Positions 11,644 through 29,329 of a DNA stretch of 64,000 nt are shown piece by piece. A model generated the notes under the pieces. The model did no database searches. It was not told the origin of the DNA and saw only the letters and a list, made by a program, of their open reading frames with translations. Numbering within the stretch: the stretch's first letter is position 1; every line of letters starts with the position of its first letter. The position numbers and the translations under genes were made by a program. The stretch comes from Bacteroidota bacterium (GTDB taxonomy: Bacteria; Bacteroidota; Bacteroidia; Bacteroidales; FEN-979), in NCBI GenBank assembly GCA_026391355.1, contig JAPLDH010000012.1:62001-126000 (forward strand). Direction: 5' to 3'.

Positions 11644-11707
11644 CAATCGACCTGATATCATTTGTTTCTTTAGCTTATCATTTCTTCTTCCGATTGAAGA
11701 TCTTGAT

Positions 11708-14700: not shown

Positions 14701-15262
14701 CCCGGAAACAGCTTCGACACCACAGGGAGAAGACAGGGTGAACACAGACACAGTAGCATCATCAGTCTACACCATTCCGCGTATACCGGGAGCTACCGGG
14801 TATTCCTGGTTCCTGGACTCGGATGGGATTACCGGCGCAGGCGCAATCTCCGGTTCAGATACTGTTGGCATTGTTCTTTGGACACATTCATGGGTGGGAA
14901 CAGCATCCATCACCGTATCCAGTTCCGACAGTTGCGGTATAAGCGCAGGATCTGACCCGAAAACGGTGAATCTATTTTCTTCCATTGCTGTCAGCGAAAT
15001 CGCGAATTCGCTCATCCGGGTGTACCCTAACCCTACAGGTGGAAAACTGAACATCTCCTTTCAGCAAAACATCCCATCTGATGTAAAAATACGGATAATA
15101 ACTCCTTTGGGATTTACCTTATTCCAATCAGATTTTAGAAGAATATCAGGAGTGTCCGATCAAACCATTGATCTGTCAGGGTTTTCAACCGGGGTTTATT
15201 ATCTTCAAATAGAAAATGACCAGGGGGTCTTGTTCAGGAAGTCAATACTAGTAAATAAATAG
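11708..15262 (+). CDS. Second C25 (gingipain-like) peptidase with PKD domains, T9SS-secreted
   Basis: The start at 11708 gives an N-terminal signal anchor (FCLLIIILLIFSYRISGQ); the frame opens upstream inside the previous gene, which I do not accept. The product has 1184 aa. The peptidase domain carries H500 (HRDHG) and C534 (SINCSTGKF), a His-Cys pair 34 residues apart as in gingipains. It is followed by an Ig-like domain, two PKD domains (WLWSFEGGTPD; WEWDFGDPASG), two PKD-like modules and a T9SS sorting domain (IRVYPNPTGGKLNIS). Extracellular protease role is inferred. It is divergent from the neighbouring C25 protein and much longer, so this is an old paralogue pair rather than a recent duplication. 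The two genes probably form one transcription unit. Confidence 0.9.
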   Translation: MESSKNIFQHKVFCLLIIILLIFSYRISGQNFVYHDSWGKAGFNIGNQGAGFVEVTYSVPVFSLDDVSLNGKAMKNIVLPGAFLFNDAGMPNLPGQGRYIAIPQGSVPKLTIISIRRDTIYNVEIQPAPVIPADTGNSPLKYQENSAVYHKNTFYPEEPVRVSGVRQIRSVDVILLGITPFQYNPVTKELVVMRDVKIRVSFSGGNGHFGVDSFRSHWFDPILKDAILNPGSLPVIDYSKRLLSILRKAAASNECEYIIIRPEDPEFQQWADSIANFRNQQGILTHVFSLTDVGGDTPTAIQNFLQNAYYNWTIKPVGVLLLGDYGNAQSYSIASPQLTMNDVTFVSDHVYADVNNDDMAELVIGRIVGNNEQQLGTICSKYLAYERTPPMDTGFYQHPVTTMGWQTDRWYQLCSEIIGGYFRSIGKHPVRVNAIYSGSVDTVWSSAPNTGQVVSYFGPAGLNYIPLQANQMPCCWYTGTPEQVNVAIEDGSFLVQHRDHGLPTGWGAPYYRNEHIDLLTNTGTRLPFVMSINCSTGKFNWTYESFAERFVRHTYNGYNSGCLGMVAPSELSFSFVNDVFTWGMYDNMWPDFMPGYGSTPYCRDICPAFAMVAGKYFLQQSNWPYDVEDKQVTYYLFHMFGDPFLRLFTEQPLTLTVEHNPVIIAGTTEFTVLTNDSAYIALTVNNQIIGTGWGNANNPTTITILPQTVGKQVRITVTKQNYLRYTDLVPVVADQLVVNFATMKDHLCVNSSTDFWDLTSGNPQSWLWSFEGGTPDISMLQNPAGIIYHIPGTFNVTLHVTKTGQTPQTLTKTGYIRIDHPAITDFSDSATCFGHPTQFTDKTTSQDAPVTRWEWDFGDPASGTDNNSALVNPVHLFTTPGTYFVHLTVTTSNDCISDTTEQVIITDIPGIPGTPSGNDQLCTGTTGNIFSTTGSIYADGYDWQIIPPEAGNFSSNILTGSLDLSPGFTGAAIINVRGSNECGKGGYSDDLPIVINSIPETASTPQGEDRVNTDTVASSVYTIPRIPGATGYSWFLDSDGITGAGAISGSDTVGIVLWTHSWVGTASITVSSSDSCGISAGSDPKTVNLFSSIAVSEIANSLIRVYPNPTGGKLNISFQQNIPSDVKIRIITPLGFTLFQSDFRRISGVSDQTIDLSGFSTGVYYLQIENDQGVLFRKSILVNK

Positions 15263-15392
15263 CATAGTTAGGTGCAAGCGGTAAAAAGACAACGCAAAGG
15301 CAAAGTCAAAAGAGCCAAATCTCCCACTCGATTGACTTTCCTTAGTGTTGAAAACTTTTTTTGGATTTGGAGAGAAGTAAGAAAAAAGGCAT

Positions 15393-15400
15393 TATATTTG
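15393..15400 (+). promoter_or_regulatory. Probable promoter -7 box for the toxin-antitoxin/RM genes
   Basis: TATATTTG matches TAnnTTTG and ends 30 nt before the ATG at 15431. A TTTG lies at 15366-15369, but the 23-nt gap is longer than the usual 19. All genes from 15431 to 21074 run the same way with small gaps and could be read from here. Confidence 0.45.
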
Positions 15401-15430
15401 ACAAATAATATCAAAACATATTTATTCAAA

Positions 15431-16021
15431 ATGGAGAATTTGGGTGACACCATCAGAAAGTTAAGGGAAGAAAAAGAATTGCCATTGCGCACAGTTGCTG
15501 CCTACCTTGATATTGACCAGGCAATACTTAGCAAGATGGAACGGGGCCTTCGCAAAATGACAAGGGAGCATGTTGTCAAGCTTGCAGCGTATTATAAGGT
15601 AAAAGAGGAAGATTTATTGGTAGCGTGGCTTTCTGACAAATTAGTGTATGAGGTGGCAGACGAAGAAATAGCATTAAAAGCGCTTCATGTTGCTGAAGAT
15701 AAAATACAATATAAAAAACTTGATAAACCTGATAAAGGAAAAATTATACAAAAAATAAGAACATTTTTTGAAAAGGACGGAAGGGCTGACAAGGTCTGGA
15801 TATTTGGCTCTTTTACCAGAAACGATTACAATTCGAATAGTGATATTGATTTAATGGTACGATTTAAAAAAGTGGATAAAATAAGCCTTTTTGATTATGC
15901 AGATATAGCTTATCTATTAGAAAGTCAATTAAATATTAAAATTGATTTGGTTGAGGAAGGATGCATCAGTCCTTTTGCATGGGAAACCGCTAAAAACGAT
16001 TTAAAATTAATTTATGAATAA
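15431..16021 (+). CDS. XRE-MNT fusion: MntA-like antitoxin nucleotidyltransferase with N-terminal HTH
   Basis: The product has 196 aa. Residues 1-65 are an XRE-type helix-turn-helix (GDTIRKLREEKELPLRTVA, ILSKMERGLR). Residues ~105-196 are a minimal nucleotidyltransferase with GS at 126-127, the DxD pair D138/D140 (NSDIDLMV) and a third acid D172 (IKIDLVEE), so all catalytic acids are present. In type VII systems MntA inactivates the HEPN toxin HepT by AMPylating it. The fused DNA-binding domain suggests the antitoxin also represses its own operon. The start at 15431 is placed by the HTH domain and by the promoter box 31 nt upstream. The downstream HEPN gene overlaps its stop by 8 nt, a sign of translational coupling. 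Confidence 0.88.
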   Translation: MENLGDTIRKLREEKELPLRTVAAYLDIDQAILSKMERGLRKMTREHVVKLAAYYKVKEEDLLVAWLSDKLVYEVADEEIALKALHVAEDKIQYKKLDKPDKGKIIQKIRTFFEKDGRADKVWIFGSFTRNDYNSNSDIDLMVRFKKVDKISLFDYADIAYLLESQLNIKIDLVEEGCISPFAWETAKNDLKLIYE

Positions 16022-16352
16022 ATCAAATCAGAAAATCAGGATAGAGCATATTAAGGACGCAATTTTACTTATTAATTCTTTCGTTCAAAATCAAACGGAA
16101 ACAGATTTTCTTGCAGATATCAAAGGACAAAATGCCGTTTTATATCAGTTTCTTATTATTGGCGAGGCTATTCGCAATGTGGATAATTCAATTTTAGATA
16201 AATATTCATATCCATGGCACATTCCAAAGTCGTTTAGAAATTTTATCGCTCATGAATATCATAAAATAAAGCTGGAAAGTGTTTTCAGAGCGACGAAAGA
16301 TTTAAACACATTACTGGAAATTGTTGAACAAATACTGAAAAACGAATTTTAA
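16014..16352 (+). CDS. HepT-like HEPN toxin (DUF86)
   Basis: This 112-aa all-helical protein has the HEPN active-site motif RxxxxHxY at R75, H80 and Y82 (RNFIAHEY), preceded by the family segment FLIIGEAIRNV. HepT proteins are RNases, held inactive when the cognate MntA modifies the tyrosine of this motif. The gene overlaps the XRE-MNT stop codon, the usual arrangement of the pair though with antitoxin first. The toxin motif is intact. It sits one base before mod, so the pair is physically linked to the type III RM operon and may guard it. Confidence 0.88.
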   Translation: MNKSNQKIRIEHIKDAILLINSFVQNQTETDFLADIKGQNAVLYQFLIIGEAIRNVDNSILDKYSYPWHIPKSFRNFIAHEYHKIKLESVFRATKDLNTLLEIVEQILKNEF

Positions 16353-16353
16353 T

Positions 16354-18048
16354 ATGCCAACACTCCATTTTAAAGGAAAAACATTTGTGCAAAACCACCA
16401 TTTGGCGGTAAAGTACCACCAACTCGTACCGAAAAAAGAATTGAGTTTAACCGATCCCGCTTATGGCGGGACAGGCTCCGTTTCTTTGCACGATAACCTG
16501 ATTATACAAGGCGACAACCTGAAAGCATTAAAGGCATTGTTGCCTACATATAGCGGAAAAATTAAATGCATTTACATTGATCCTCCTTACAATACTGGTA
16601 ACGATAATTGGGTGTACAATGACAATGTTAATAGCCCAATGCTGCAAGAATGGTTAGGTAAAGCAGTTAATATTGAAGATTTGACAAGGCATGACAAATG
16701 GCTTTGCATGATGATGCCTCGATTAAAACTGCTTCGAGAATTATTGAGCGAAGATGGAGCAATTTTTGTTTCCATTGATGATAATGAACAGCACTCTTTA
16801 AGGTGTTTGCTTGATGAAATTTTTACTGAACATAATTTCGTTTCAAATATCACAATTCAAGTAAATAAAGGTGGTAGAGATTATTTACCAATAGCCGCAA
16901 CTCATGAATATTTATTATGTTATTTTAAATCAGAGCAGAGTGATTTAAATGAGTTAGCTAAAGATATTTCACATTTTAAACTTGAAGATAAAATAGGGAA
17001 ATATGAATTAAGAGAATTGAGGAATCGAAATCCGAAATTTAATAGTAGTAATCGTCCCAATTTATTTTATCCTATTTATATTGCACCTGACACAGCAAAT
17101 GAAGATGGGCATTGCTTTATTTCATTAACGAAAAGTAAAAAATATTGTATTGAGACCAATCCTTTAAATAGTAAAATAGAAGAAAGTTGTTGGAGATGGG
17201 GAAAAGATCTTTTACAAAAAAGTATTTCTGAAAATTTTGATACAACAAAAATTGTAGCAAAACAAAAAAGTGATGAAGGTTGGAATATTTATGAAAAATC
17301 ACGAAAGGCAACTTCTAAGGCAAAAACTATTTGGGATGAAAGCGAAGTCAGAACTGAACAAGGAACAATTGATTTACGCGAGATAGGATTAGCAAATGCT
17401 TTTCAATTCCCCAAACCTACTTATTTAATAAAAAAGGTAATTAAATTAGCTACAGATAAAAATTCTATTATTCTTGACAGTTTTGCCGGTTCAGGAACTA
17501 CCGCACACGCAGTTTTAGACCTAAATAAGGAAGATGGTGGCAACCGTAAATTTATTTTGGTTGAAATGGAAGAATATGCTGACAAAATCACAGCCGAAAG
17601 GGTTCGGAGGGTAATCAAAGGAGTTAAAACAGCAAAGAATGAAAACCTAAAAAAAGGAACAGGTGGAACATTCAGTTACTTTGAGTTAGGCGAAACCATA
17701 GAAATGGAAAACTTACTTAAAGGGAAAAACTTGCCTTCATTTACAGAGTTTGCCCGTTATCTTTTTTACACAGCCACTGGTGAAGAATTCAATGAAAAAT
17801 CAGTAAATGAAAAAACTGGTTTTATAGGCGAAAGCAAAAACCATGAAGTGTATTTGATTTATAAACCAGATATTGAATGGTTGAAACGGAATGCTTTAAC
17901 GTTAGAAGGTTGTCAAAATCTACCCAAATTTAAAAACAAACAACGTTTGGTTTTTGCCCCTTGCAAATATATAGATGACGATACTTGTTTAGAACATCGC
18001 ATTGATTTTTGCCAATTGCCTTACGAAATATACCGTCTGAAACACTGA
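16354..18048 (+). CDS. mod: Type III restriction-modification system methyltransferase subunit (Mod)
   Basis: The product has 564 aa. The order of motifs is DPPYNTG (D76-Y79, catalytic motif IV) then DSFAGSGTT (from D375, AdoMet-binding motif I), so it is a beta-class N6-adenine methyltransferase. QGDNLKALKALLPTY just before DPPY is typical of type III Mod proteins. Mod recognises the target site and methylates adenine; with Res it forms the restriction complex. The variable middle (~100-340) would be the target recognition region. Residues 35-42 (PAYGGTGS) are encoded by an inserted palindromic repeat at 16455-16475, apparently tolerated in a loop. The start at 16354 comes two bases after the HepT stop. 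Confidence 0.92.
   Translation: MPTLHFKGKTFVQNHHLAVKYHQLVPKKELSLTDPAYGGTGSVSLHDNLIIQGDNLKALKALLPTYSGKIKCIYIDPPYNTGNDNWVYNDNVNSPMLQEWLGKAVNIEDLTRHDKWLCMMMPRLKLLRELLSEDGAIFVSIDDNEQHSLRCLLDEIFTEHNFVSNITIQVNKGGRDYLPIAATHEYLLCYFKSEQSDLNELAKDISHFKLEDKIGKYELRELRNRNPKFNSSNRPNLFYPIYIAPDTANEDGHCFISLTKSKKYCIETNPLNSKIEESCWRWGKDLLQKSISENFDTTKIVAKQKSDEGWNIYEKSRKATSKAKTIWDESEVRTEQGTIDLREIGLANAFQFPKPTYLIKKVIKLATDKNSIILDSFAGSGTTAHAVLDLNKEDGGNRKFILVEMEEYADKITAERVRRVIKGVKTAKNENLKKGTGGTFSYFELGETIEMENLLKGKNLPSFTEFARYLFYTATGEEFNEKSVNEKTGFIGESKNHEVYLIYKPDIEWLKRNALTLEGCQNLPKFKNKQRLVFAPCKYIDDDTCLEHRIDFCQLPYEIYRLKH
16455..16475. repeat. Palindromic repeat inside mod
   Basis: CCCGC-TTATG-GCGGG followed by ACAGG, read as PAYGGTG in Mod. 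It sits between segments that join smoothly in Mod proteins I know (KKELSLTD and SLHDNLIIQGDNL), so it looks like an in-frame insertion. It belongs to the same general class of GC-rich palindromes as the one in res. Confidence 0.55.
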
Positions 18049-18083
18049 TTGTAGCTGATTGTAATGATTAATTTGATATAAGC

Positions 18084-18524
18084 ATGAAAGATGTCATAAA
18101 CGAAAAATATAAATATTCCGAATTAACAGGCAAAATAATTGGCTGCTCAATGGAAGTACATAAAATACTTGGCAATGGATTTCAGGAAGTTATTTATCAG
18201 AGGGCATTGCAAGAAGAGTTTATTCTTCAAGGTGTTTCTGCATTTAGAGAATTTGAAATGTGTATTTTTTACAAGGGAAAAATTATTGGAACAAGACGGG
18301 TTGATTTTTTTGTTGGAGATGCCGTTTCATTAGAGATTAAGGCACTTATCAAATTGGAAGATGTTCATCTTGCACAAGCAATTAATTATTTGGAAGCATA
18401 CAATTTAGAAATAGGAATGCTAATCAATTTTGGTACAAAAAGTTTGGAATATAAACGATTAATTAATTCCAAGTTTGACCCTGCAAAGCTCAATACATCA
18501 GTTAAATCAAAACAATCAACTTAA
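18084..18524 (+). CDS. GxxExxY-family protein (predicted PD-(D/E)XK nuclease fold)
   Basis: This 146-aa protein carries the naming motif GFQEVIY (in LGNGFQEVIYQRAL), then RRVDFFV and SLEIKAL, which together fit the D...ExK core of PD-(D/E)XK nuclease-like folds. Members are widespread in Bacteroidota and their function is not established. The gene lies between mod and res, 35 nt after the first and 15 nt before the second, all on one strand, so it is very likely co-transcribed with the RM system. It could be an accessory nuclease or regulator, or simply a passenger. It starts at the first ATG. Confidence 0.85.
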   Translation: MKDVINEKYKYSELTGKIIGCSMEVHKILGNGFQEVIYQRALQEEFILQGVSAFREFEMCIFYKGKIIGTRRVDFFVGDAVSLEIKALIKLEDVHLAQAINYLEAYNLEIGMLINFGTKSLEYKRLINSKFDPAKLNTSVKSKQST

Positions 18525-18539
18525 TCTGCGGTTCAGACA

Positions 18540-21074
18540 ATGAGACTAAAGCTATATCAGGAAAAGGTTTTAAAGGAACTGAAAGAATATTTAGTTGCTT
18601 TAGCTGATGCAAAAAAAGAGTTTGAAGAAATAGCCGAACTCAAACCGCATTTTGCAAAGCATATAAATTTTCCGAAAGAAGCCTGGGAAAAATCGACTGG
18701 ACGTTTGATTTACAATTCCAAAACAAATGGATTAGAAGAACCATTACCCGACATTTATTTAAAAGTGCCAACAGGTGGCGGTAAAACACTTTTAGCTTGC
18801 CACGCTATTGACAACATACATAAAACATTTCTCAAAAAACAAACAGGCTTGGTTTTATGGATTGTTCCGTCAACTCAGATATACAGACAAACTATTTCGG
18901 CATTAAGAAATCGTGAACATCCTTACCGGCAGATTTTAGATATTTCAAGTGGGGGCAGAACCCTCATAAAGGAAAAAACAGAAATGTTTAATCGCCTTGA
19001 TGTGTACGAACATTTAATTGTATTAATGTTAATGCTGCCTTCGGCTAATCGTCAAAATAAAGAAACTTTAAAAGTATTTCGTGACCAAGGTGGATTTACT
19101 GATTTTTTTCCAAGAGAAGATGATTTTGAAGGACATAAAAAACTAAAGGAACTCATTCCGAATTTAGATTGTTTCACCACCGAAATGGAAGTTTTCGGAA
19201 CACAAATTAAAACTTCGCTTGGCAATACTTTAAAAACTTTACGTCCACTTGTTATTATTGACGAAGGACACAGAGCTTATGGAGAGTTGGCAAGGAATAC
19301 AGTAAAAAGCTTCAATCCTTCCTTTATTCTTGAGCTTTCCGCAACACCCCCTCCCAACAGTAACGAGTTGGTGAAAATTACAGGACGGGAATTGCACGAA
19401 GAAGAAATGATAAAATTGGATATTCACTTAACCAACAAAACAAGTCTAGAATGGCAAGACACTTTATTAGCAAGCTATGAAAAGCGGAATGAGTTGGAGA
19501 AAAAAGCCAGGGAATACGAAAGTAACACCGGCGAGTATATCCGCCCAATTTGCTTGATACAAGTTGAACGAACAGGCAAAGACCAAAGAGAAAAAAAGTT
19601 TATTCACGCAGAAGATGCAAAGGAATATTTAATAAAAAAATGTAACATTCCTGAAAACCATATTGCAATAAAGAGTAGCGAAAAAGACGACATTGAAGGC
19701 ATAGACTTGTTTGGTAAAGGTTGTGAAATACGTTATATAATTACAAAACAAGCCTTACAAGAAGGCTGGGATTGTTCGTTTGCATACATTCTTACAGTGC
19801 TTACTAATCCATCATCGGTAACAGGCATTACTCAATTAGTTGGTAGAATTTTAAGACAACCTTTTGCACGTAAAACAAAAATCAAAGAATTAGACGAGTG
19901 CTATGTTTACACTTTCCGGCAAACTGCAAGCACTTTAGTAAAAGAAATAAAATCTGGTTTAGAGGATGAAGGATTAGGCGACATTGCCGGTAGAATTGTA
20001 AGCGATGAAGCGGGAACAGATACAGGAGGATTGAAAGACCGTGATATTAAATATCGTTCTGGATTTAAAAAGTTTGAAGGCAAAATTTATCTGCCTAAGT
20101 TTGTAATTCAGGAAAAAGAAAGCTGGCGTGATATGAATTTTGAAGTCGATATACTAAGTGAAATTGACTGGGAAAATATAAGTATTGCTGAACTGAATAA
20201 TCTTTCACTACAAAACAAAAAGAACAAAGAACAAGAAATTGTTTTAGGTTTAAGCTCCGTAGAAAAGGAAATATTAAAAGAAACAAGCAGAGCAGAAAAA
20301 TCAGGAACATTAGTGATTGACGAAGTATTTCTGACAAGACAAATTACGGACATAATTCCAAATCCCTGGCATTGTTATCAAATTGGTGTAAAAGCAGTAA
20401 AAATGCTTTTGAAAAAATATGACCGTGAAATCGTTGCAACAAATTTTGTTTTTATAATTGAAGAACTAAAAAAGATTTTAGATAAAGAACGAAACCGTTT
20501 GTCAGAGCAAGTTTTCAGACAGATGGTTGAGCAAAAGAAACTTTATTTCTTCCTCATTACCGACAAAGGCGTTTTTGTACTTCCATCAAGAATAAAGGTG
20601 AAAAGCAACAAGCAACTGGTTCGTAATGATAATACACCCATTCAAAAATCATTGTTTGACTATGTTCCCGAGGAGAACATTAACGACCTTGAAAAATCGG
20701 TTGCTATTTACCTTGATGAACAAGAAAAACTATTGTGGTGGTATCGAAATATGAGCAGGCAGGACTATCATATTCAAGGTTGGAAACGCAATAAAATTTA
20801 CCCTGACTTTATTGCAGCAGACCTGCCTACCGGACAGGCAGGCAAACAAAAAAGCAAAGACGATTACGGAACTGTTTACGTACTGGAAACAAAAGGAATT
20901 CATCTAAAAAATGAGGACACCAAATACAAACAAGACGTTTTTACACTTTGCAACGAATTAGGAGCAAAAAAAGCCTGGAAAGAATTGTTTAAAGAATTCC
21001 CAGACCACGACTTTGCATTTCAAGTTGTATTTGAGGACGAGTGGCAAAACAAAATAAATCAGTTAATGCAATAG
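18540..21074 (+). CDS. res: Type III restriction enzyme subunit (Res): helicase plus endonuclease
   Basis: The product has 844 aa. Superfamily 2 helicase motifs run in order: Walker A (VPTGGGKT), DEGH box (IIDEGHRAYG), SAT motif (ELSATPP), EGWDCSFAYIL and the arginine-finger motif QLVGRILRQPF. The C-terminal nuclease domain has the PD...ExK site: YPDF with D756, then LETKG with E783 and K785. Res translocates on ATP after Mod recognises two sites and then cuts beside one. Between D756 and E783 lies a heptapeptide LPTGQAG (762-768) encoded by a perfect stem palindrome at 20822-20842, an in-frame repeat insertion in a loop of the active domain. The gene is otherwise full length, and the system is probably functional. 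Confidence 0.92.
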   Translation: MRLKLYQEKVLKELKEYLVALADAKKEFEEIAELKPHFAKHINFPKEAWEKSTGRLIYNSKTNGLEEPLPDIYLKVPTGGGKTLLACHAIDNIHKTFLKKQTGLVLWIVPSTQIYRQTISALRNREHPYRQILDISSGGRTLIKEKTEMFNRLDVYEHLIVLMLMLPSANRQNKETLKVFRDQGGFTDFFPREDDFEGHKKLKELIPNLDCFTTEMEVFGTQIKTSLGNTLKTLRPLVIIDEGHRAYGELARNTVKSFNPSFILELSATPPPNSNELVKITGRELHEEEMIKLDIHLTNKTSLEWQDTLLASYEKRNELEKKAREYESNTGEYIRPICLIQVERTGKDQREKKFIHAEDAKEYLIKKCNIPENHIAIKSSEKDDIEGIDLFGKGCEIRYIITKQALQEGWDCSFAYILTVLTNPSSVTGITQLVGRILRQPFARKTKIKELDECYVYTFRQTASTLVKEIKSGLEDEGLGDIAGRIVSDEAGTDTGGLKDRDIKYRSGFKKFEGKIYLPKFVIQEKESWRDMNFEVDILSEIDWENISIAELNNLSLQNKKNKEQEIVLGLSSVEKEILKETSRAEKSGTLVIDEVFLTRQITDIIPNPWHCYQIGVKAVKMLLKKYDREIVATNFVFIIEELKKILDKERNRLSEQVFRQMVEQKKLYFFLITDKGVFVLPSRIKVKSNKQLVRNDNTPIQKSLFDYVPEENINDLEKSVAIYLDEQEKLLWWYRNMSRQDYHIQGWKRNKIYPDFIAADLPTGQAGKQKSKDDYGTVYVLETKGIHLKNEDTKYKQDVFTLCNELGAKKAWKELFKEFPDHDFAFQVVFEDEWQNKINQLMQ
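20822..20842. repeat. CCTGCCT...AGGCAGG palindrome inside the Res nuclease domain
   Basis: This 21-nt element has stems CCTGCCT and AGGCAGG around ACCGGAC. It is translated as part of DLPTGQAGK and keeps the frame. The same palindrome family is found in spacers at 21185, 21438, 25533 and 40059 in this window. Confidence 0.8.
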
Positions 21075-21141
21075 CCAATGCACAGGTGTCAGCAGAAATG
21101 AAACAACATATGTACCTGACAGACAAGAACCGCCAGCACCT

Positions 21142-21311
21142 AATCGAGTAGGCTGCCCCGTCAGCATCGCCGACGGGGAGAGCCCCTGCCTGCGGCAGGC
21201 AGGTCTCACACCACCTTGCGTACAGGTCATCCTCTGGAAAATTGCACACTTATTGTTTGCCCTTGAAGAGTTATTTGTATTTTTAAACTTTTTCTAGAGC
21301 TTACAACAGGT
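21142..21311. repeat. Direct repeat copy A, left of the STAND gene (group II intron 3' end remnant?)
   Basis: A 170-bp segment starting AATCGAGTAGGCTGCCCCGT and ending in CTTACAACAGGT. It recurs as copy B at 25490-25636, nearly identical except for a 23-bp block present only here. On the minus strand it reads ...GCAAGGTGGTGTGAGA... then a GC-rich hairpin and GCCTACTCGATT. As I recall, this resembles domains V-VI at the 3' end of bacterial group II introns. A palindrome (21185-21203) is nested in it. No intron reverse transcriptase is present, so it is a relic at best. Confidence 0.75.
21185..21203. repeat. Palindrome CCTGCCTGCGGCAGGCAGG
   Basis: A 19-nt near-perfect palindrome nested in direct repeat copy A, between the parts that look like intron domains V and VI. 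Confidence 0.8.
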
Positions 21312-21339
21312 GTGCGCTGCATGCTCATGCAGAGCACAC
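21310..21339. repeat. Strong hairpin after repeat A
   Basis: GTGTGC-CTGCAT / ATGCAG-GCACAC with a 4-nt loop and one G-A mismatch. No T-tract follows, so it is not a standard terminator. The rest of the 430-nt spacer before the STAND gene holds another palindrome at 21438-21456 and no gene that I can see. Confidence 0.6.
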
Positions 21340-21437
21340 ACAGGCCGTCAGCCGACAATGCGGGCGGCTTTCCTGTGGCATACATGAACCAAACCTGCAA
21401 ATGACGTACAAATTGAAAACGGTATACAAATAAAACC

Positions 21438-21456
21438 CCTGCCTACCGGCAGGCAG
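21438..21456. repeat. Palindrome CCTGCCTACCGGCAGGCAG
   Basis: Member of the same palindrome family as the one inside res, located 49 nt before the STAND gene start at 21505. Confidence 0.75.
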
Positions 21457-21504
21457 TCGCACTGTGGCTGCCAGAAAGGCGTTGGGCGCAATAAACACAA
21501 TGTT

Positions 21505-24500
21505 ATGTTCAAATTAAAATCAGACGAAAAACCACGGGATATTCGAATTTTTATCAGCTCCACTTTCGAGGATATGAAATTGGAAAGAGAACAACTTATA
21601 AAACACACATTTCCTCAATTACGATCTATTGCAAAAAGTCATGGTGTTGAGATAACTGAAGTTGACCTTCGGTGGGGAATAGACGGTGAAAAGGTAGAAA
21701 AAGGAGATACAATAGCTGTCTGTATTAATGAAATTGAAAGAAGTCGTCCATATTTTGTTGGAATACTTGGGCACCGCTATGGATGGATTCCTAATGCATT
21801 ACTACCTGACGAGATTGATGAACATAGAAATGAACGGGTGGCAATGCTTTGTGCTCGTCTCAAGAGAGAAGAATATTCAGTGTATATTGAGAAACTCATA
21901 AGAGAAGGTCGGAGTGTCACTGATATTGAATTTCAGCACGGTGTACTAAGGAGTTCTGAAACCCGAAGCAAAGCTCGCATATACTTCAGACGTGAATCTG
22001 ATTATTGTGATCCTGAAGGATCTGAATCTGCCAGTCTGCTTCAAGGATTAAAGAAAGCTGTTTCCGATAAGTTATTTGAACATAAACCAACAGAGTATTC
22101 CAATATTACGGAACTGCACGAGGCTGTGCTGAAAGATTTTAAAAAATTTCTTGTTGATGATTATCCTGAACATGAAAAACCAAATGAATTGCACTCTGTA
22201 TTATCGGGGCATAAATCTTTTGCCCGGACCCGTTTATCAGTATGGGAGGGAGCAGGTGCTCTATTGGATAAACTTGAATCCCTTGTACAGGAAAATGCTT
22301 CACATGTAGTCGTTACTGGCCCGGGCGGGCTTGGTAAAACTGCATTATTGGCACATTGCATAGCCCAGCATCAAGATTATGGTGACGATGTTTTCTATTT
22401 GTTCTGCGGAGGAGGCCCCGGAGCAACAAAATGGCCTGCAATGATGCGATTATTGCTTGAACAAATAGTGGATTATTATAGTCTGAGTGATAAGGTTAAA
22501 ATACCACCCCATAATGTTGAGTTATCAGATGCATTGGTTGAAATTTTATCTACTCATCTCATTAACCAGCAGCTAATACTTGTTTTAGACGGATTGGATC
22601 AGTTAGAGGATGCAGGTGACCTGAATTGGTGGCCAGACCAAAAAAAATTCTCAGAGAATGTAGTTACAGTACTAGGGGTAAGATGTGGAAAACTTGCAGA
22701 TATTCTTATAGCAAGAGGACTGGCTTTTATTACCATGCAACCAATTGATGAAAGTGACCGCAAGGTAATTATCAGAAAAGTTTTAAAAAACTATTCCAGG
22801 AGCTTGGGACAAAAACTAATTAATGAAATTGCCGCAGATAAAGAATCTGAGAATCCGTTAGTATTACGAACCCTCTTAGAGGAATTAAAAGCTCATGGAG
22901 ATAATGTGAATTTGGAAGAATGTGTGCATTGGTATATTGACACAGACTCAAATGAGGACTTTTTTAGCCGTGTGATTGAGAGACTTACACGCGACTACGA
23001 AGCAGCTTCAAAAGTATTACCCTTGATAGGTGCTTCGATCGTAGGATTGTCTGAAACTGAAATCCGCGAAATTGCGGAACTGGAAAGTCATCTGGCCTGG
23101 TCCGAGTTATATGACGTTCTTGCTCCACATATCGCCAACCGGGATGGCTATCTGGTGTACAGTCATGATTTTATCCGACAAGCTGTCGCCAGAAATTTCT
23201 ATCCTAACAAAGAAGATATCCATCAATATCAGCAAAAGTTGATTGACTACTTTACAGATCCTGCCAGACGATTGGAACGACGTGCTCTTAAGGAATGGCC
23301 GGAACTTTATGCACGCATGGGAAATGTTGCAGGTCTTTTACACAGGGATACTATTCGCAATTTGTACGATTACGATGCTGATCAAGAAAATCCCAGGCTG
23401 GTAAGCATTCTTAACACCTGTTTGGATAATGGTGGTGATATTGTTCAATATTTACTGAACAGAAATTTTGTTCTTAATAGTAAAGATGATGTCTTTGCTG
23501 AAGACACACTGGCGATGATTCCATATCTCATTAATAAATGTCAGGTTTGTGTCGAGTTGCTTGAAAAGATATGGTCTATAATAGATTCAAAAGATATTGA
23601 GATACGACAGGGAGAGATGGGTAACAAAAAAAATTGGTACCATGAGTCGAAAGTATTGATAGCTAATAATTTAGGCGTCGCGTATGGTTTTTGTGGAAAT
23701 AGAGAACGGTCAAAATTCTATCTTGAGCTGTCGGTCGAATCTGTTTTTGAATTTCCATCGATACATGAAATCGCTCAACGATTGAATAATTTGGCCAACT
23801 TACTTTCACATGAAGGAGGTTTTAGATATACTACGTTGCTGCATAAGTGCGCACTGGATCTTTATACTGTTCTGAATAAATCAAAATTTGAGAATCGACT
23901 ATATGGCACTTGGTACCATATATCATTAGTTTATTGGGAAAATGGAGAATATGATATGGCAATAATGGCGTTGAAAAAAGCCCTTGACGGATACAGGAAA
24001 CTTTATGGGAATGACCATCCTGATACTATTAAATGTGAAAGAGAGTATGAATCTTTCAGGCATAGATTATCAAGATGGGAAAATGTAAGTATTGAGGATG
24101 AAATGCCGCGACTGGATAACTTGAGTACCAAGGATATCAATCAAATAAAGAATTTACATAATGAATATTCGGAAAAAGCATGGATTGACTCAAGGCGAAG
24201 AAATGACTTTGAATCTGCAGAAAAATGGTTGCAATCTGCATTGGAATTATCTGAATTGATACCTGATTTTGAGGATTCTAAAACCAGGATCAGGCTTGCA
24301 GTAATTCGCCAAACCGCCGGTAAAGAGTCAATTCCAGTAAATAAACTGAAAAACTGGATAGAGTTATGTGATAATGATGGACTGAAAAAGCAAGCTCGCA
24401 GGCTCATAAAACTTTCTGAAGATGCTTGCTATGACAAAAAAGCATTTATCCAGAACTCTATTCTCTCAGGTCGGGCATATTTCGCATGTGGTATTATTCA

Positions 24501-25356
24501 AAAGGGAATTGAGGTATTGTCAGAAGCCCAAAATTATGCAAAGGGAGAATTGAATGAAATTGAAGGCGATGATGCCGTTCTTTTTAAGAACTATATTTCA
24601 GAAATTGAGAACCTATTGGTAACAAAAGATGAAAATATGAATGCCGATGTAATGGAGTCGTGTGGTATGATTGCAAAGGCGATCGAAAAAAAATCTTTGG
24701 ATTATGTAAATGATAAAAGCGCTTTTAATGCTCATAACTATGCAGAATCGTGTATCAATGTGGGAAATCTTGAACTGGCTATTAAACTTGAAGAAGAAGC
24801 GCTAAAGGGATTTAGAGAAGTTAACAATCAGGATGGCATGGCAAGGGCTTATGGAAACTTGGGCAGAATTTGTCATTTGGTAGGTAAGTACGCAGAATCA
24901 ATGGGATACCATAAGAAAGAGGAAAAAATAGCATTGGAAATAAATGATCATGATGTACTTGCCGAGTCGTTATGGAATCAGTCAATTATGCTTCGCAGGC
25001 AAGGTCGATATCAAGATGCGGTTTTGACAGCTCAAAGAGGTCAAGCCGGTTTGGGTGATAGAAAATGGAATACCTGCTGCCAAATCGAGGAACTTTTTAA
25101 CAAAACACTTGTTTGTGATCTACATCTTGAAAGTGCTATTTCATCCATGGAGGAGCAATTAAAGAAAATTGAATATAACTTTGCTCAAGGTCACTGGCTC
25201 GGCTCTTCTTACCTTGCCTGTCTTTTACAAAAAGCTGGACATACTGAACGTGCTCTGATCATTTGGAACGAAATATTAACCAAAGCGCAGTGCAATGGTT
25301 TCAAACTTATCGAGATGGAAATGGAAGAGCTTAAAAACGTTGGTTTTTGGAAATAA
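21505..25356 (+). CDS. DUF4062-NACHT/STAND NTPase-TPR protein (putative defence sensor)
   Basis: The product has 1283 aa. Residues ~9-95 are a DUF4062 domain (RIFISSTFEDMKLEREQL, EVDLRWGI, ERSRPYFVGILGHRYGWIP). Next comes a STAND-type ATPase with Walker A GPGGLGKT (272-279) and Walker B LILVLDGLDQLED (~351-363), a winged-helix/arm region with LVYSHDFIRQAV, and a C-terminal TPR-like helical array (~720-830 and ~1060-1190; NNLANLL, YGNLGRICHLVGKY). The architecture recalls eukaryotic NPHP3/NWD1-type proteins. Bacterial NACHT proteins with helical sensor repeats act in antiphage immunity, which fits its place beside an RM system and a toxin-antitoxin pair; the role here is inferred. The gene is more AT-rich than the envelope genes around the island and is bracketed by direct repeats, suggesting transfer. 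No dedicated promoter is obvious. Confidence 0.85.
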   Translation: MFKLKSDEKPRDIRIFISSTFEDMKLEREQLIKHTFPQLRSIAKSHGVEITEVDLRWGIDGEKVEKGDTIAVCINEIERSRPYFVGILGHRYGWIPNALLPDEIDEHRNERVAMLCARLKREEYSVYIEKLIREGRSVTDIEFQHGVLRSSETRSKARIYFRRESDYCDPEGSESASLLQGLKKAVSDKLFEHKPTEYSNITELHEAVLKDFKKFLVDDYPEHEKPNELHSVLSGHKSFARTRLSVWEGAGALLDKLESLVQENASHVVVTGPGGLGKTALLAHCIAQHQDYGDDVFYLFCGGGPGATKWPAMMRLLLEQIVDYYSLSDKVKIPPHNVELSDALVEILSTHLINQQLILVLDGLDQLEDAGDLNWWPDQKKFSENVVTVLGVRCGKLADILIARGLAFITMQPIDESDRKVIIRKVLKNYSRSLGQKLINEIAADKESENPLVLRTLLEELKAHGDNVNLEECVHWYIDTDSNEDFFSRVIERLTRDYEAASKVLPLIGASIVGLSETEIREIAELESHLAWSELYDVLAPHIANRDGYLVYSHDFIRQAVARNFYPNKEDIHQYQQKLIDYFTDPARRLERRALKEWPELYARMGNVAGLLHRDTIRNLYDYDADQENPRLVSILNTCLDNGGDIVQYLLNRNFVLNSKDDVFAEDTLAMIPYLINKCQVCVELLEKIWSIIDSKDIEIRQGEMGNKKNWYHESKVLIANNLGVAYGFCGNRERSKFYLELSVESVFEFPSIHEIAQRLNNLANLLSHEGGFRYTTLLHKCALDLYTVLNKSKFENRLYGTWYHISLVYWENGEYDMAIMALKKALDGYRKLYGNDHPDTIKCEREYESFRHRLSRWENVSIEDEMPRLDNLSTKDINQIKNLHNEYSEKAWIDSRRRNDFESAEKWLQSALELSELIPDFEDSKTRIRLAVIRQTAGKESIPVNKLKNWIELCDNDGLKKQARRLIKLSEDACYDKKAFIQNSILSGRAYFACGIIQKGIEVLSEAQNYAKGELNEIEGDDAVLFKNYISEIENLLVTKDENMNADVMESCGMIAKAIEKKSLDYVNDKSAFNAHNYAESCINVGNLELAIKLEEEALKGFREVNNQDGMARAYGNLGRICHLVGKYAESMGYHKKEEKIALEINDHDVLAESLWNQSIMLRRQGRYQDAVLTAQRGQAGLGDRKWNTCCQIEELFNKTLVCDLHLESAISSMEEQLKKIEYNFAQGHWLGSSYLACLLQKAGHTERALIIWNEILTKAQCNGFKLIEMEMEELKNVGFWK

Positions 25357-25489
25357 TCAAGAATATTCAATTCCCGTTTTCAAACCATATTCGCTAACTC
25401 AAAAATGCAGGACATTCACTTTATACAAAACTGACTAAAAGTGAATATAGAAACGATATTAAAGTCCTTAAATGAATTTACATGCGCCC

Positions 25490-25636
25490 AATCGAGTAGG
25501 CTGCCCCGTCAGCATCGCAGACGGTGAGAGCCCCTGCCTGCGGCAGGCAGGTCACCCTCTGGAAAATTGCACACTTATTGTTTGCCCTTGTAGATTTATT
25601 TGTATTTTTAAACTTTTTCTAGAACTTACAACAGGT
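25490..25636. repeat. Direct repeat copy B, right of the STAND gene
   Basis: A 147-bp copy of the segment at 21142-21311. It keeps the AATCGAGTAGG start, the palindrome (25533-25551), the CCTCTGGAAAATTGCACACT middle and the CTTACAACAGGT end, and lacks the 23-bp block of copy A. The preceding 25357-25489 holds nothing I can recognise. Confidence 0.75.
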
Positions 25637-25680: not shown

Positions 25681-28600
25681 ATGAAAAAACACCTTCTCCT
25701 GATTTATTTTGTTTTTGCACTCGTTTTTCCGATCCTTACACAGAACCTCCCGAACTTTCCGATTGTAACCCCGGCCGGAAAAGGAATTGTAAATACCCGC
25801 ATTGATGATATTTCTTACTGGAAAAAAATGTTGAAGCTGGGATATATCAAAGCGCTGCCTGCCGTTCCCGTGCAGAAAGCAATCAAGACCACCAGTATAA
25901 TTACAGGGAAGGAAATAGTCACACAGGATTCTCCTGATATTCCCGTAACGAATGATACCAATACCACCCAGACAGAAAATTCAGTATTCATTGATCCCTG
26001 GAATGAGGATATCGTTCTGAACTCAAATAACTCAACAGATTGGGATGGGTCGAGTGTGGTAAATGCATTTGGCGCTGATGGGCTGTTCTCATTTAACGGT
26101 GGTATTGCCTGGGGGGGATCACAGCAAGCTGCAGGGCAGGCCAATTCCGGGGATCCAGCGACGGCAATCGGGTTAAATGGTTGGTGGTATGTAGGCGCTA
26201 TCAGCAATACCTGGGGTCAGGGGGTAGCTTATTCTACCGACCAGGGAAACAACTGGAATTATGTGGATGTCGCCACAGTCCCTCCTTCCGGCAACGATCT
26301 CCTGGATAAAAATCACCTCTGGATCGACACGAAACCTTCAAGCCCTTATGAAGGGTTCCTTTATGATGCATGGATGAATGCTGTTGAAACTTCTATCAAC
26401 CAGGCCAACATTGAGCTAAGCCATTCAGAGGATCACGGACTCACCTGGTCCTCCGCCATCAACATCAGCGCAGCGGTGAATGCCGGAAGCCATAACCAGG
26501 GAGTGAACATCAATACAGGGCCTGACGGCGAGGTTTATGCCGTATGGGCCATTTATGATGACTGGCCTGTTGATGAATCCGCATTGGGCTTTGCAAAATC
26601 CATCAACGGCGGTGCAATTTTTACTCCTGCAACCCGTATCATCGATAATATCAAAGGGATCAGGATCAGTGGCACGTCGAAAAGTATGAGGGTGAGCTCA
26701 TTCCCTTCCATGACAGTGGACAACAGCAACGGACCTTACAGCGGGAACATTTATGTTGTATGGCCAAATCATGGTTATCCTGGTGTCAATACAGGTCCCG
26801 ACATCAATGTTTACATGATCCGTTCATCGGATGGAGGGACTACCTGGTCATCCCCGATAAAGGTTAACCAGGATCCCCCAGGACATGCCAAACAGCATTA
26901 TCTATGCTGGATCACGTGCGATCCTGAAACGGGAACACTGGCAGTGATCTATTATGACGACCGGAATGTATCTGCAACACAATGTGAAACCTGGGTTTCC
27001 TATTCATATGATGGTGGAGATACATGGCAGGATATAAAGGTCAGCGATGTTTCCTTTACCCCTACTCCATTGCCCGGATTGGGCGTCAGCTACTTTGGCG
27101 ATTATCTGGGGATCTCTGCAAGAAACATGAAAGTTTGCCCGGTTTGGACTGATAATCGTTCAGGTATTGCCATGTCGTACACTTCCCCGTTTTTCCTGGG
27201 TCCTGCACCCGGCCAGGCATATGTGGTCTATAACTCTTCTGCACTTTCATTGATCAGCGATCATTCTGCCACCAATTTGAATTATGGTGATTCCCTTTAC
27301 CTCACCGTCGGATTAAAAAATATTGGTGACCGTCCGGTTCAGGGAGTGACCACATTTCTTTCTTCAGCATCTTCCTTTATTGAGATAACAGACAGCACTG
27401 AAAACTATGGAGACCTGGATACTGCACAGGTAAAGATCATTCCTGATGGTTTTTCATTTAAAGTGTCCGACACAATTCCCGATGGACTGAACGTCAAATT
27501 TACCATCCGTATTACAAACGGTGACAGCACCTGGTATAGCAATTTTACGGTTGAAGCCCATGCACGTGCCATGAAGATCGTGAATATCAGTATTATAGAT
27601 TCGTCAGGCAACAACAATGGCCGGCTGGATCCCGGTGAAAACGCGGTGATTTCCATTACGGTTAAAAATACTGGTGATTTCCCTTGTGAGAATGCCATAG
27701 CCAACCTTGTTTCCTTATCAGATTATATTGAAATTACCTCTGACATCGCTGCGCTTGGTACGCTTCAGCCGGATCAATCCGCCATGGCCAATTTTACCAT
27801 TTCCGTGGCCGGTGACGCTACCACCGGTAGTTATGCAGATCTTACGGTACATAAGGTTTCAGGATCATACAATCAACAGGAAACCTTCCGGGAAGGGATT
27901 GGCCAACTCGTAGAAGACTGGGAAACAAACACTTTCACAAAATTTCCATGGGATGTGAATACCACCCATCCCTGGTCGCTGATCGATGCCGGCGCCTATG
28001 AAGGTCATTATGCTGTCCGGTCCGGTCTGATCCTTGATAACCAACAATCTGAGTTAAAAATCTCTTGCACAGCCGGTACAAATGACAGCATTTCATTTTT
28101 CCTTTTTACCTCTACGGAGTTTAGTTATGATCTTCTGCATTTTTATATTGACTCCGTCCTGATGAAATCATGGTCGGGAGAAACCCCCTGGGAAAGAGAG
28201 GCATTCCCGGTTTCTGCAGGTTTGCATACGTTTCACTGGATCTATTCAAAAGATTTCTTCAATTACCTGGGTGGAGATTGCTGCAGGCTCGATTGGATCA
28301 CATTCCCTGCTCCCCCTCTGCCTGCCATCAATCCGGGTACGGATGCTACGATCTGTACCGGGGATCAATTCCTGCTCCAGGGAACAGCATCAAATTATGA
28401 CTCCCTTCACTGGACGACAACAGGTGACGGAAACTTCAGCAATGATAGCATCATAAGACCTGTCTATACTCCTGGCACCATTGATATAATTAACGGATGG
28501 GTAAAACTAAAGCTCACCGGGTATGGTCAGAATGGGCATGTGAGAAAAAGCATGCTGTTAACTATCGGAAACTATCCTGTCTTACATATCACTGCTTTTC

Positions 28601-29097
28601 CGGGTGATACGTTGTGTGCAGGGCATACAGCGATACTGCGCGTTGATTCCCTTGCCGGAGGCCATTATCTCTGGATTCCGGGGAACTTAACAACAAATGT
28701 AATTTCCGTTGATACCTCCCTGACAGGGGGAATAAACGCTACCTGGATTAAGGTCTTTGTGACGAATCAATACAATTGCACAAGGTCTGATTCAATTCTT
28801 ATTACATTTAAGGATTGTACCGGGATTGAAGAGAGAGGGAATCCGTTTGAACTGACAGTATTTCCCAACCCTAACAAGGGGATCTTCACATTGTTCATTC
28901 AAACCATGAAGCCGGAAACGCTCGGTGTTCGTATCATCACCCCTTTAAATATAACCATCTTTGAGGAGAAGAATATCGGGGTTTCAGGGAAACTCACAAA
29001 AGAGTTCAACATTAAGTATCTCTTAGCAGGAATCTATTTTCTGGAGATACAAAGAAGTGATGGGACAAAGGTGACGGAGAAGATTATGATTGAATGA
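25681..29097 (+). CDS. Sialidase-like (BNR) surface protein with T9SS sorting domain
   Basis: The product has 1138 aa with a signal peptide (MKKHLLLIYFVFALVFPILTQ). Residues ~140-510 read as a beta-propeller of sialidase/BNR type, with repeated Asp-box-like segments: STDQGNNW, SEDHGLTW, SSDGGTTW, SYDGGDTW. Next come two CARDB/Ig-like modules (LKNIGDRPVQG, VKNTGDFPCENA) and a jelly-roll-like module with WETNTFTKFPWD. An Ig-like domain and a T9SS sorting tail (LTVFPNPNKGIFTL) close it. It is expected on the cell surface or in the medium. Asp boxes alone do not prove glycosidase activity, and I see no clear arginine triad, so substrate is open. It starts 44 nt after repeat copy B. Confidence 0.85.
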   Translation: MKKHLLLIYFVFALVFPILTQNLPNFPIVTPAGKGIVNTRIDDISYWKKMLKLGYIKALPAVPVQKAIKTTSIITGKEIVTQDSPDIPVTNDTNTTQTENSVFIDPWNEDIVLNSNNSTDWDGSSVVNAFGADGLFSFNGGIAWGGSQQAAGQANSGDPATAIGLNGWWYVGAISNTWGQGVAYSTDQGNNWNYVDVATVPPSGNDLLDKNHLWIDTKPSSPYEGFLYDAWMNAVETSINQANIELSHSEDHGLTWSSAINISAAVNAGSHNQGVNINTGPDGEVYAVWAIYDDWPVDESALGFAKSINGGAIFTPATRIIDNIKGIRISGTSKSMRVSSFPSMTVDNSNGPYSGNIYVVWPNHGYPGVNTGPDINVYMIRSSDGGTTWSSPIKVNQDPPGHAKQHYLCWITCDPETGTLAVIYYDDRNVSATQCETWVSYSYDGGDTWQDIKVSDVSFTPTPLPGLGVSYFGDYLGISARNMKVCPVWTDNRSGIAMSYTSPFFLGPAPGQAYVVYNSSALSLISDHSATNLNYGDSLYLTVGLKNIGDRPVQGVTTFLSSASSFIEITDSTENYGDLDTAQVKIIPDGFSFKVSDTIPDGLNVKFTIRITNGDSTWYSNFTVEAHARAMKIVNISIIDSSGNNNGRLDPGENAVISITVKNTGDFPCENAIANLVSLSDYIEITSDIAALGTLQPDQSAMANFTISVAGDATTGSYADLTVHKVSGSYNQQETFREGIGQLVEDWETNTFTKFPWDVNTTHPWSLIDAGAYEGHYAVRSGLILDNQQSELKISCTAGTNDSISFFLFTSTEFSYDLLHFYIDSVLMKSWSGETPWEREAFPVSAGLHTFHWIYSKDFFNYLGGDCCRLDWITFPAPPLPAINPGTDATICTGDQFLLQGTASNYDSLHWTTTGDGNFSNDSIIRPVYTPGTIDIINGWVKLKLTGYGQNGHVRKSMLLTIGNYPVLHITAFPGDTLCAGHTAILRVDSLAGGHYLWIPGNLTTNVISVDTSLTGGINATWIKVFVTNQYNCTRSDSILITFKDCTGIEERGNPFELTVFPNPNKGIFTLFIQTMKPETLGVRIITPLNITIFEEKNIGVSGKLTKEFNIKYLLAGIYFLEIQRSDGTKVTEKIMIE

Positions 29098-29146: not shown

Positions 29147-29329
29147 ATTTGAATTACCCCGTGCTTTAGCGCGGGGTTCAAAGACAAAACAAAAGAGGGC
29201 TTCAGCCCAAAAAATTGTATCCGATATAGGATATGTTAATATCTGCGTACATTTTGCCTGTTTCGGGCTAAAGCCCTGAATAACCCTGGCCGCCTTTAAC
29301 CCCGGACTTAAGTCTGGGGTAATTCAAAT
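29147..29329. mobile_element. MITE-like element with 14-bp terminal inverted repeats
   Basis: Perfect terminal inverted repeats, ATTTGAATTACCCC at 29147-29160 and GGGGTAATTCAAAT at 29316-29329, bound a 183-bp noncoding element. Inside are further hairpins: CGTGCTTTAGCGCG, GGGCTTCAGCCC, CGGGCTAAAGCCCG and CCGGACTTAAGTCTGG. No target-site duplication is obvious. It fills most of the spacer between the sialidase-like gene and the next gene. Confidence 0.8.

Follow-up and report, generated by a model that had tools for sequence, protein, structure and literature searches.

A STAND gene in a Bacteroidales genome probably lies in a cassette of an integron-like system, between scars of a group IIC-type intron

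The STAND gene, its flanking repeats and two cassettes

The window analysed here (the whole stretch of DNA, 64 kb in length) contains an open reading frame of 1283 aa (21505-25356) that is flanked on the + strand by two direct repeats, at 21136-21311 and 25484-25636. That the product is a STAND protein is backed by the Pfam domains DUF4062, NACHT and TPR; PADLOC gave only a weak match for it. Consistent with the original prediction that near-identical repeats, differing by a 23-bp block, lie on both sides of the gene, the two copies agree at 145 of 153 aligned positions outside one 23-bp gap (global alignment), and the match in fact extends six bases further left, to 21136 and 25484. The copies are approximately 95% identical, in direct orientation and 4.35 kb apart, and the second was recovered with an E value of 6.5e-50 in a search of its own genome, which excludes chance. 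Because the 23-bp gap is placed between two CAGGTC hexamers, with the left copy being the longer one, we read it as the outcome of a slip between the hexamers. When the 170-bp repeat copy was used as a query, eight matches were found in its own draft genome (4.83 Mb, 81 contigs), both window copies included; of the others, those on contigs C53 and C63 cover the right half, C36 has a left half plus a separate 24-base piece, and C57 has two pieces. Since these are halves or pieces, the repeat consists of two separable halves. Four matches were found in the one other genome of the same genus in our set. No second full-length STAND relative was present among the matches listed for 41 genomes, only partial ones. 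(Four of the listed partial matches, with 25-43% identity, lie on G000:C44:126252-177503, which is possibly a STAND-rich region.)

The features that we read from the sequence around the gene are as follows.

15267..15268, + strand: left insertion point G^TT; the C25 peptidase gene (11594-15262) stops five bases upstream
15268..21143, + strand: cassette 1, 5,876 bp, with restriction/HepT cargo
15272-16352, + strand: nucleotidyltransferase/HTH and HepT-like pair, in cassette 1
16354-18048, + strand: type III methylase, in cassette 1
18084-18524, + strand: PDDEXK_3 gene, in cassette 1 between the methylase and Res
18540-21074, + strand: type III Res, in cassette 1
21130..21143, + strand: R''-type end of cassette 1, CCGCCAGCACCTAA, with the intron scar (TCGAG) directly after
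21144..21341, - strand: left intron scar, read from alignment with longer copies; the intron 3' end, from 21144, comprises domain VI and part of V, the deletion junction is close to 21222, and then come the 5' region and a terminal hairpin at 21310-21341
21185..21203, second copy 25533-25551: small dispersed palindrome CCTGCCTGCGGCAGGCAGG, within the left and right scars
21345..21481, + strand: attC-type stem with arms 21345-21363 and 21458-21472 and last base G at 21481; by eye, laid out as the C9 attC-type sites
21482..25491, + strand: cassette 2, 4,010 bp, encoding the STAND protein; from ^TTGGGCGCA to TGCGCCCAA, with TCGAG next
21505..25356, + strand: STAND gene, in cassette 2; DUF4062, NACHT, TPR repeats
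25492..25635, - strand: right intron scar; the same internally deleted intron, lacking the 5' hairpin, with no attC stem after it
25635..25636, + strand: insertion point G^TT on the right, in the context AACAGG^TTATGG; the T9SS-type gene 25681-29097 comes next

The first nine bases of cassette 2 and its last nine are reverse complements of each other, and its ends complement each other at nine of ten positions, those of the restriction cassette doing so at eight of ten. When the far end of cassette 1 is reverse-complemented and compared with the + strand of the window, it matches best at 15268, where TTAGGTGCAAGCGG agrees at 12 of 14 positions (next best, 11 of 14). Note that by our arithmetic, which assumes equal bases, approximately 0.2 such matches are expected by chance per strand, and that the weight of this match comes from its lying at the boundary. 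Stem scans flagged neither attC-type site of the window; the left site has both arms by eye and the right site is without a stem, so that the STAND cassette is not complete today. No partner of the right border was found further downstream, which fits a resident gene there. (At 29147-29329, between two genes, there are inverted arms of 35 bases that are 80% complementary and 113 bases apart.)

In an array on contig C9 of the same genome, eight consecutive cassettes, taken as an unselected set, have starts and ends that complement each other at 72 of 80 positions; the shuffled mean was 46.5, and none of 20,000 shuffles reached the observed value. Pooling 16 cassettes gave agreement at 142 of 160 positions, the pool being made up of the eight of C9, the restriction cassette and seven others (STAND, C110, C259, C221, C51a, L100 and L091) and being partly chosen for having a partner end. 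The five intron-bearing cassettes alone agree at 43 of 50 positions, a weak result that was reached by 179 of 20,000 shuffles and is near the floor for five items. Altogether, 22 cassette starts were tried for a partner end, of which seven were accepted. The 15 starts without an accepted partner, several of them cut by contig ends, were gene 25681, C63, C53, C214, C128, G010:C25, L098, C51b, L096, L097, G058 and four fused copies (G002, G046, G051 and C57); two of these, C51b and G058, have a candidate 8-base partner match each. (Note that for four of the 22 starts, namely 25681, C110, G010:C25 and L097, a later GTT was taken as the cassette start.)

Intron remnants in attC-type sites

On the minus strand, the right half of the repeat continues in longer copies from this genome and its genus (C63, and contigs C110, C128 and C214 of G001) into sequence that matches the Rfam group II intron family RF02001. 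Matches to this family in relatives of the repeat at L014, L018, L019 and L020 score 55 to 82, with a gathering threshold of 32. The left half of the repeat is, in our reading of the alignment, the 3' end of such an intron, with domain VI and part of domain V. The whole element is seen in G001:C110 and C214, where it measures 674 and 700 bases, respectively, and has no reverse transcriptase frame inside. The copy on C63 contains the start of a reverse transcriptase (the N-terminal 187 aa, where the contig stops); among solved structures it is closest to those of group IIC enzymes (GsI-IIC at 9.2e-50 versus LtrA at 1.4e-15). The scars in the window encode no intron protein, the class C intron-encoded protein being found in the C63 relative only. 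Rfam gave no relevant match on the window or on the left repeat, and neither scar scores; both are without the intron middle and so do not comprise complete domains I to VI. Judged by sequence, then, the repeats are scars of a group IIC-type intron that lies antisense to the genes on the minus strand, with its 5' end joined to its 3' end and its middle deleted.

In the C9 array, R''TAACGAGC-stem-GCG^TTR is the form of most plain cassette ends. The typical form of an intron-bearing site is R''TAA or CAA/TCGAG...CACACA/CGAGC-stem-GCG^TTR, with exceptions that include the left site of the window, which has CACACACAGGC. Comparison of the two kinds of site shows that the intron lies inside the attC-type site, just after R''. 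Five cassettes, including the two of the window, carry the intron beside R'' on the bottom strand.

The deletion is nearly the same in both scars, which makes independent insertions improbable. The likeliest route is homologous recombination that copied one scar over the other; a possible alternative source of the shared deletion is parallel deletion between small palindromes inside the intron, which occur near the 5' end in the copies on C63, C53 and C214 and near the 3' end in that on C36. (Palindromes close to CCTGCCTNCCGGCAGGCAGG are also present at 21438-21457 and at about 20822-20843. With up to 2 mismatches allowed, the family is listed 24 times forward and 25 times in reverse across the own genome, most places appearing on both strands, and a reversed control gave 0. 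A similar stretch inside the Res gene encodes LPTGQAG, and the palindrome may insert into genes.) The stretch L016 (G000:C57, 1-8602) contains four Intron_gpII matches, a match to the DUF805 RNA and two frames for group II intron reverse transcriptases that score above the cut-off.

When the 5' ends of intron copies were read by eye, 17 were found to have a terminal hairpin and eight to lack it, with one running off its contig. The eight are the right scar of the window, the copies in C57, L082 and L086, and two copies each in L083 and L074. In five of the eight, G^TT is found near the inner end of the intron: in the window and L082 it follows AACAR directly, and in one L083 copy, L086 and C57 it lies two or three bases further. 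Crossover by the recombinase described below may explain this, as may arrest of reverse transcription at the hairpin. For the fused copies in L086 and C57, no partner end was found.

We assign the hairpin to the intron because the three places in the own genome that match the hairpin pattern (with up to 3 mismatches) are all beside an intron 5' end, and because copies occur at sites unlike attC (L093, L094 and L103); counting against this assignment, L091 has the hairpin without the intron. Consensus folding of the intron 5' region backed the first hairpin only, with 9 pairs, 2 of which have both bases changed in a single sequence each. (A second stem seen by eye was therefore dropped, as was a promoter, TAxxTTTG, that fits only some copies.) A query of 166 bases that spans an intron 5' end with its hairpin (L004:1180-1345) found matches in 15 of 61 genomes, its own included. 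The exact hairpin pattern was found in 13 stretches of the genome collection that are titled Bacteroidales, Bacteroidetes or uncultured bacterium, with one Draconibacterium, and had 0 matches in viral contigs.

A recombinase with its array, and the locus in relatives

The eight cassettes on C9 follow a tyrosine recombinase gene; the cassettes of the window lie on contig C7, not beside a recombinase in the draft. With the integron integrase model TIGR02249 (cut-off 265), the C9 recombinase (544 aa) reaches 217.6 bits, and with the XerA-type model (cut-off 220) it reaches 216.9 bits; its best solved relative is IntI4 (2a3v, E 7.6e-40), the next being XerA (6.6e-38). For the recombinase of G001, the XerA-type model scores higher than the integron model. 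Positions 180-237 of the integrase profile are unmatched in the C9 recombinase, and the two conserved motifs that flank this place are 68-69 residues apart in this protein and in all 37 homologous frames aligned (from about 25 genes, C9 included), which together show that the IntI-specific domain is absent. Work by Messier and Roy in 2001 is said to have found an additional domain necessary in IntI. (The N-terminal ~270 aa of the recombinase at L088 8527-10161, on G000:C9, have no Pfam match at 0.001, and several homologous frames are similarly long.) Matches to the recombinase occur in 40 of 41 genomes at 1e-20, of which the weaker ones may be ordinary Xer proteins.

At 21 recombinase loci, attC-like stems numbered 22 in 120 kb and were present at 12 of the loci, as compared with 1 in 106 kb at 12 control loci and 0 in 44 kb at 3 more; the 64-kb window has 1, away from the cassettes. 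Note that the count at recombinase loci is an undercount, as the scan flags one C9 site where another scan flags six. Several contigs end shortly past the recombinase gene.

At 1e-15, 21 of 26 genomes contain a match to the T9SS-type gene on the right of the cassettes, and for 12 of these matching genes we compared the upstream DNA, amounting to about 3 to 9 kb each. The restriction, HepT-pair and STAND proteins were found in none of the 12 upstream stretches (tblastn, 1e-8). A C25b-type peptidase gene lies directly upstream in five (G003, G010, G004, G006 and G011, the last being a weak match) and with one gene between in two (G012 and G008), and a C25a gene lies upstream in G001; the remaining four (G005, G002, G009 and G013) had no C25 gene within the fetched stretch. 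The likeliest reading of these sequences is that 15268-25635, a stretch of 10,368 bp, was inserted between two genes that adjoin each other elsewhere. Since the relatives' loci are without both cassettes, the acquired unit was probably the whole of approximately 10.4 kb rather than the STAND gene alone; since those loci belong to other species, they put no date on the insertion event.

Entry of the cassettes and competing explanations

We think it quite probable that the STAND gene is a cassette of an integron-like Bacteroidales system, which lies in tandem with a restriction/HepT cassette at a chromosomal G^TT, and that the repeats around it are group IIC-type intron scars in attC-type sites. 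The cassette ends, the identity of the intron, the relatives' loci without cassettes and the arrays beside an IntI-like recombinase can all be read directly from the DNA; the movement we infer, and the STAND gene with its neighbouring defence cassette probably entered by way of the integron-like system. In particular, the two cassettes would have entered in tandem at a plain G^TT between the C25 peptidase gene and the T9SS-type gene, both presumably moved by the C9 recombinase. A group IIC-type intron would have inserted antisense into attC-type sites, beside the R'' box, presumably moved by a IIC reverse transcriptase that would act in trans for copies without a protein gene. The intron middle would then have been deleted, leaving the two scars as the direct repeats, with one scar presumably copied onto the other.

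According to the original prediction, the gene is gained and lost as a cassette through recombination between the repeats, which would excise exactly the STAND gene, with the ~150-bp repeats serving as working cassette ends. The close identity and direct orientation of the repeats at such a spacing favour this explanation, as does another cassette that lies between two intron copies in G029 (L073); moreover, a crossover would leave one scar and would release a circle containing the STAND gene, R'' and the left attC-type stem, i.e. a complete attC. We nevertheless consider it unlikely, as none of the 12 loci compared (from other species, not strains of the source species) has an allele with a single repeat and no STAND gene, and all of them are also without cassette 1, while the cassette ends carry integron-type signatures that point to site-specific recombination for entry. 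What stands of the idea of a mobile cassette is that the gene looks mobile, that the repeats mark its ends and that loci without it exist; what does not stand is the view of the repeats as a purpose-made excision pair, for they are remnants of an intron. Repeat copies spread through the genome at random, with no relation to the presence of the gene, had been expected to speak against the prediction, and copies at other sites were in part found, as copies of intron parts. Loss of the STAND gene by recombination between the repeats was not seen but is possible, given that the missing attC stem of the STAND cassette should hamper ordinary excision by an integrase.

A model proposed for group IIC-attC introns (PMC7923331) has an intron copy in an attC recombine with one at the terminator of a gene, thereby joining the gene to an attC, and the STAND locus could be a fossil of this step. 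The right scar, which lacks both hairpin and stem as if it lay outside a full attC, would fit such cassette building, but the bases beside it (TGCGCCCAA) complement the cassette's own start, as is expected for a true R'' and not for a chance terminator, and we therefore regard this origin as improbable, more so than excision through the repeats. Least probable, in our judgement, is that a dispersed noncoding repeat flanks the gene by chance and that the locus entered by homologous recombination without any cassette system: the further repeat copies in the genome would agree with this, but the self-complementary ends, the G^TT borders and the intron identity would all go unexplained.

The reading that we favour, a cassette of an integron-like system, places the locus close to several known systems. 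Like sedentary chromosomal integrons and CALINs, the system has cassettes that share one orientation and whose start complements R'', crossover at G^TT and defence cargo, as well as palindromic attC-type stems, which are seen in the C9 array and, by eye, at the left site of the window; it differs from them in that the recombinase is without the IntI-specific domain and in that the host lineage is Bacteroidales. The window cassettes (4.0 and 5.9 kb) are large when compared with the eight of C9 (0.5-2.0 kb). Immune cargo is not the rule, given that among two other cassettes, one carries a type II methylase (G001:C110) and one carries T9SS-tail proteins and a C13-type peptidase (G029). Insertion at a chromosomal G^TT, which is neither attI nor attC, resembles the attG insertion of integron cassettes reported by Loot et al. 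2024 (via PMC12444791), whereas here two cassettes are found in nature and the recombinase is non-canonical. The introns share with group IIC-attC introns a IIC-type reverse transcriptase, in one copy, and insertion beside the attC R'' on the strand opposite the genes. They differ in the junction (on the gene strand, typically TAA/CGAGC here and TTGT/T there), in a mobile unit that seems to start with its own hairpin and ~60 bases before the usual-looking intron start, and in that the two G001 copies (674 and 700 bases) are without a protein gene. Broken group II introns within a cassette cluster are also described for a CALIN of Halorhodospira halochloris (PMC7923331), where the introns belong to group IIB and are 5'-truncated, whereas the ones here are IIC-type and internally deleted.

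We put forward more tentatively, as a proposal somewhat likelier to be wrong than right, that Bacteroidales have an integron-like system of their own. In this system, a Xer/IntI-like recombinase without the IntI-specific domain would move large immune cassettes (type III restriction with a HepT pair; STAND) into plain chromosomal sites, and a IIC-type intron with its own 5' hairpin would reside in attC sites, where its inner end, near AACARG, would provide an alternative crossover point. A system whose recombinase is without the IntI-specific domain is likely to be missed by surveys that require this domain. IntegronFinder 2 looks for the IntI-specific domain (PMC9668308) and names a single complete Bacteroidetes integron, that of Salinibacter ruber M1 (PMC9024848); Bacteroidetes/Chlorobi or Bacteroidota are counted among integron carriers (PMC2426708, PMC9668308, PMC8618304), and papers of 2025 report defence genes in integrons (via PMC12444791). 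Among the papers listed on integrons or attC in Bacteroidetes, Bacteroidales or Bacteroidota, a set that lacks most subscription papers, we found none on Bacteroidales arrays of this kind, and we make no claim that these are unpublished.

Thus, what began as a repeat pair becomes an insertion that can be delimited, in which 10.4 kb of defence genes lie between genes that are neighbours in relatives. These findings suggest integron-type capture of immune genes in a group for which IntegronFinder 2 names one complete integron, perhaps because this program seeks a domain that is absent from the recombinase here.
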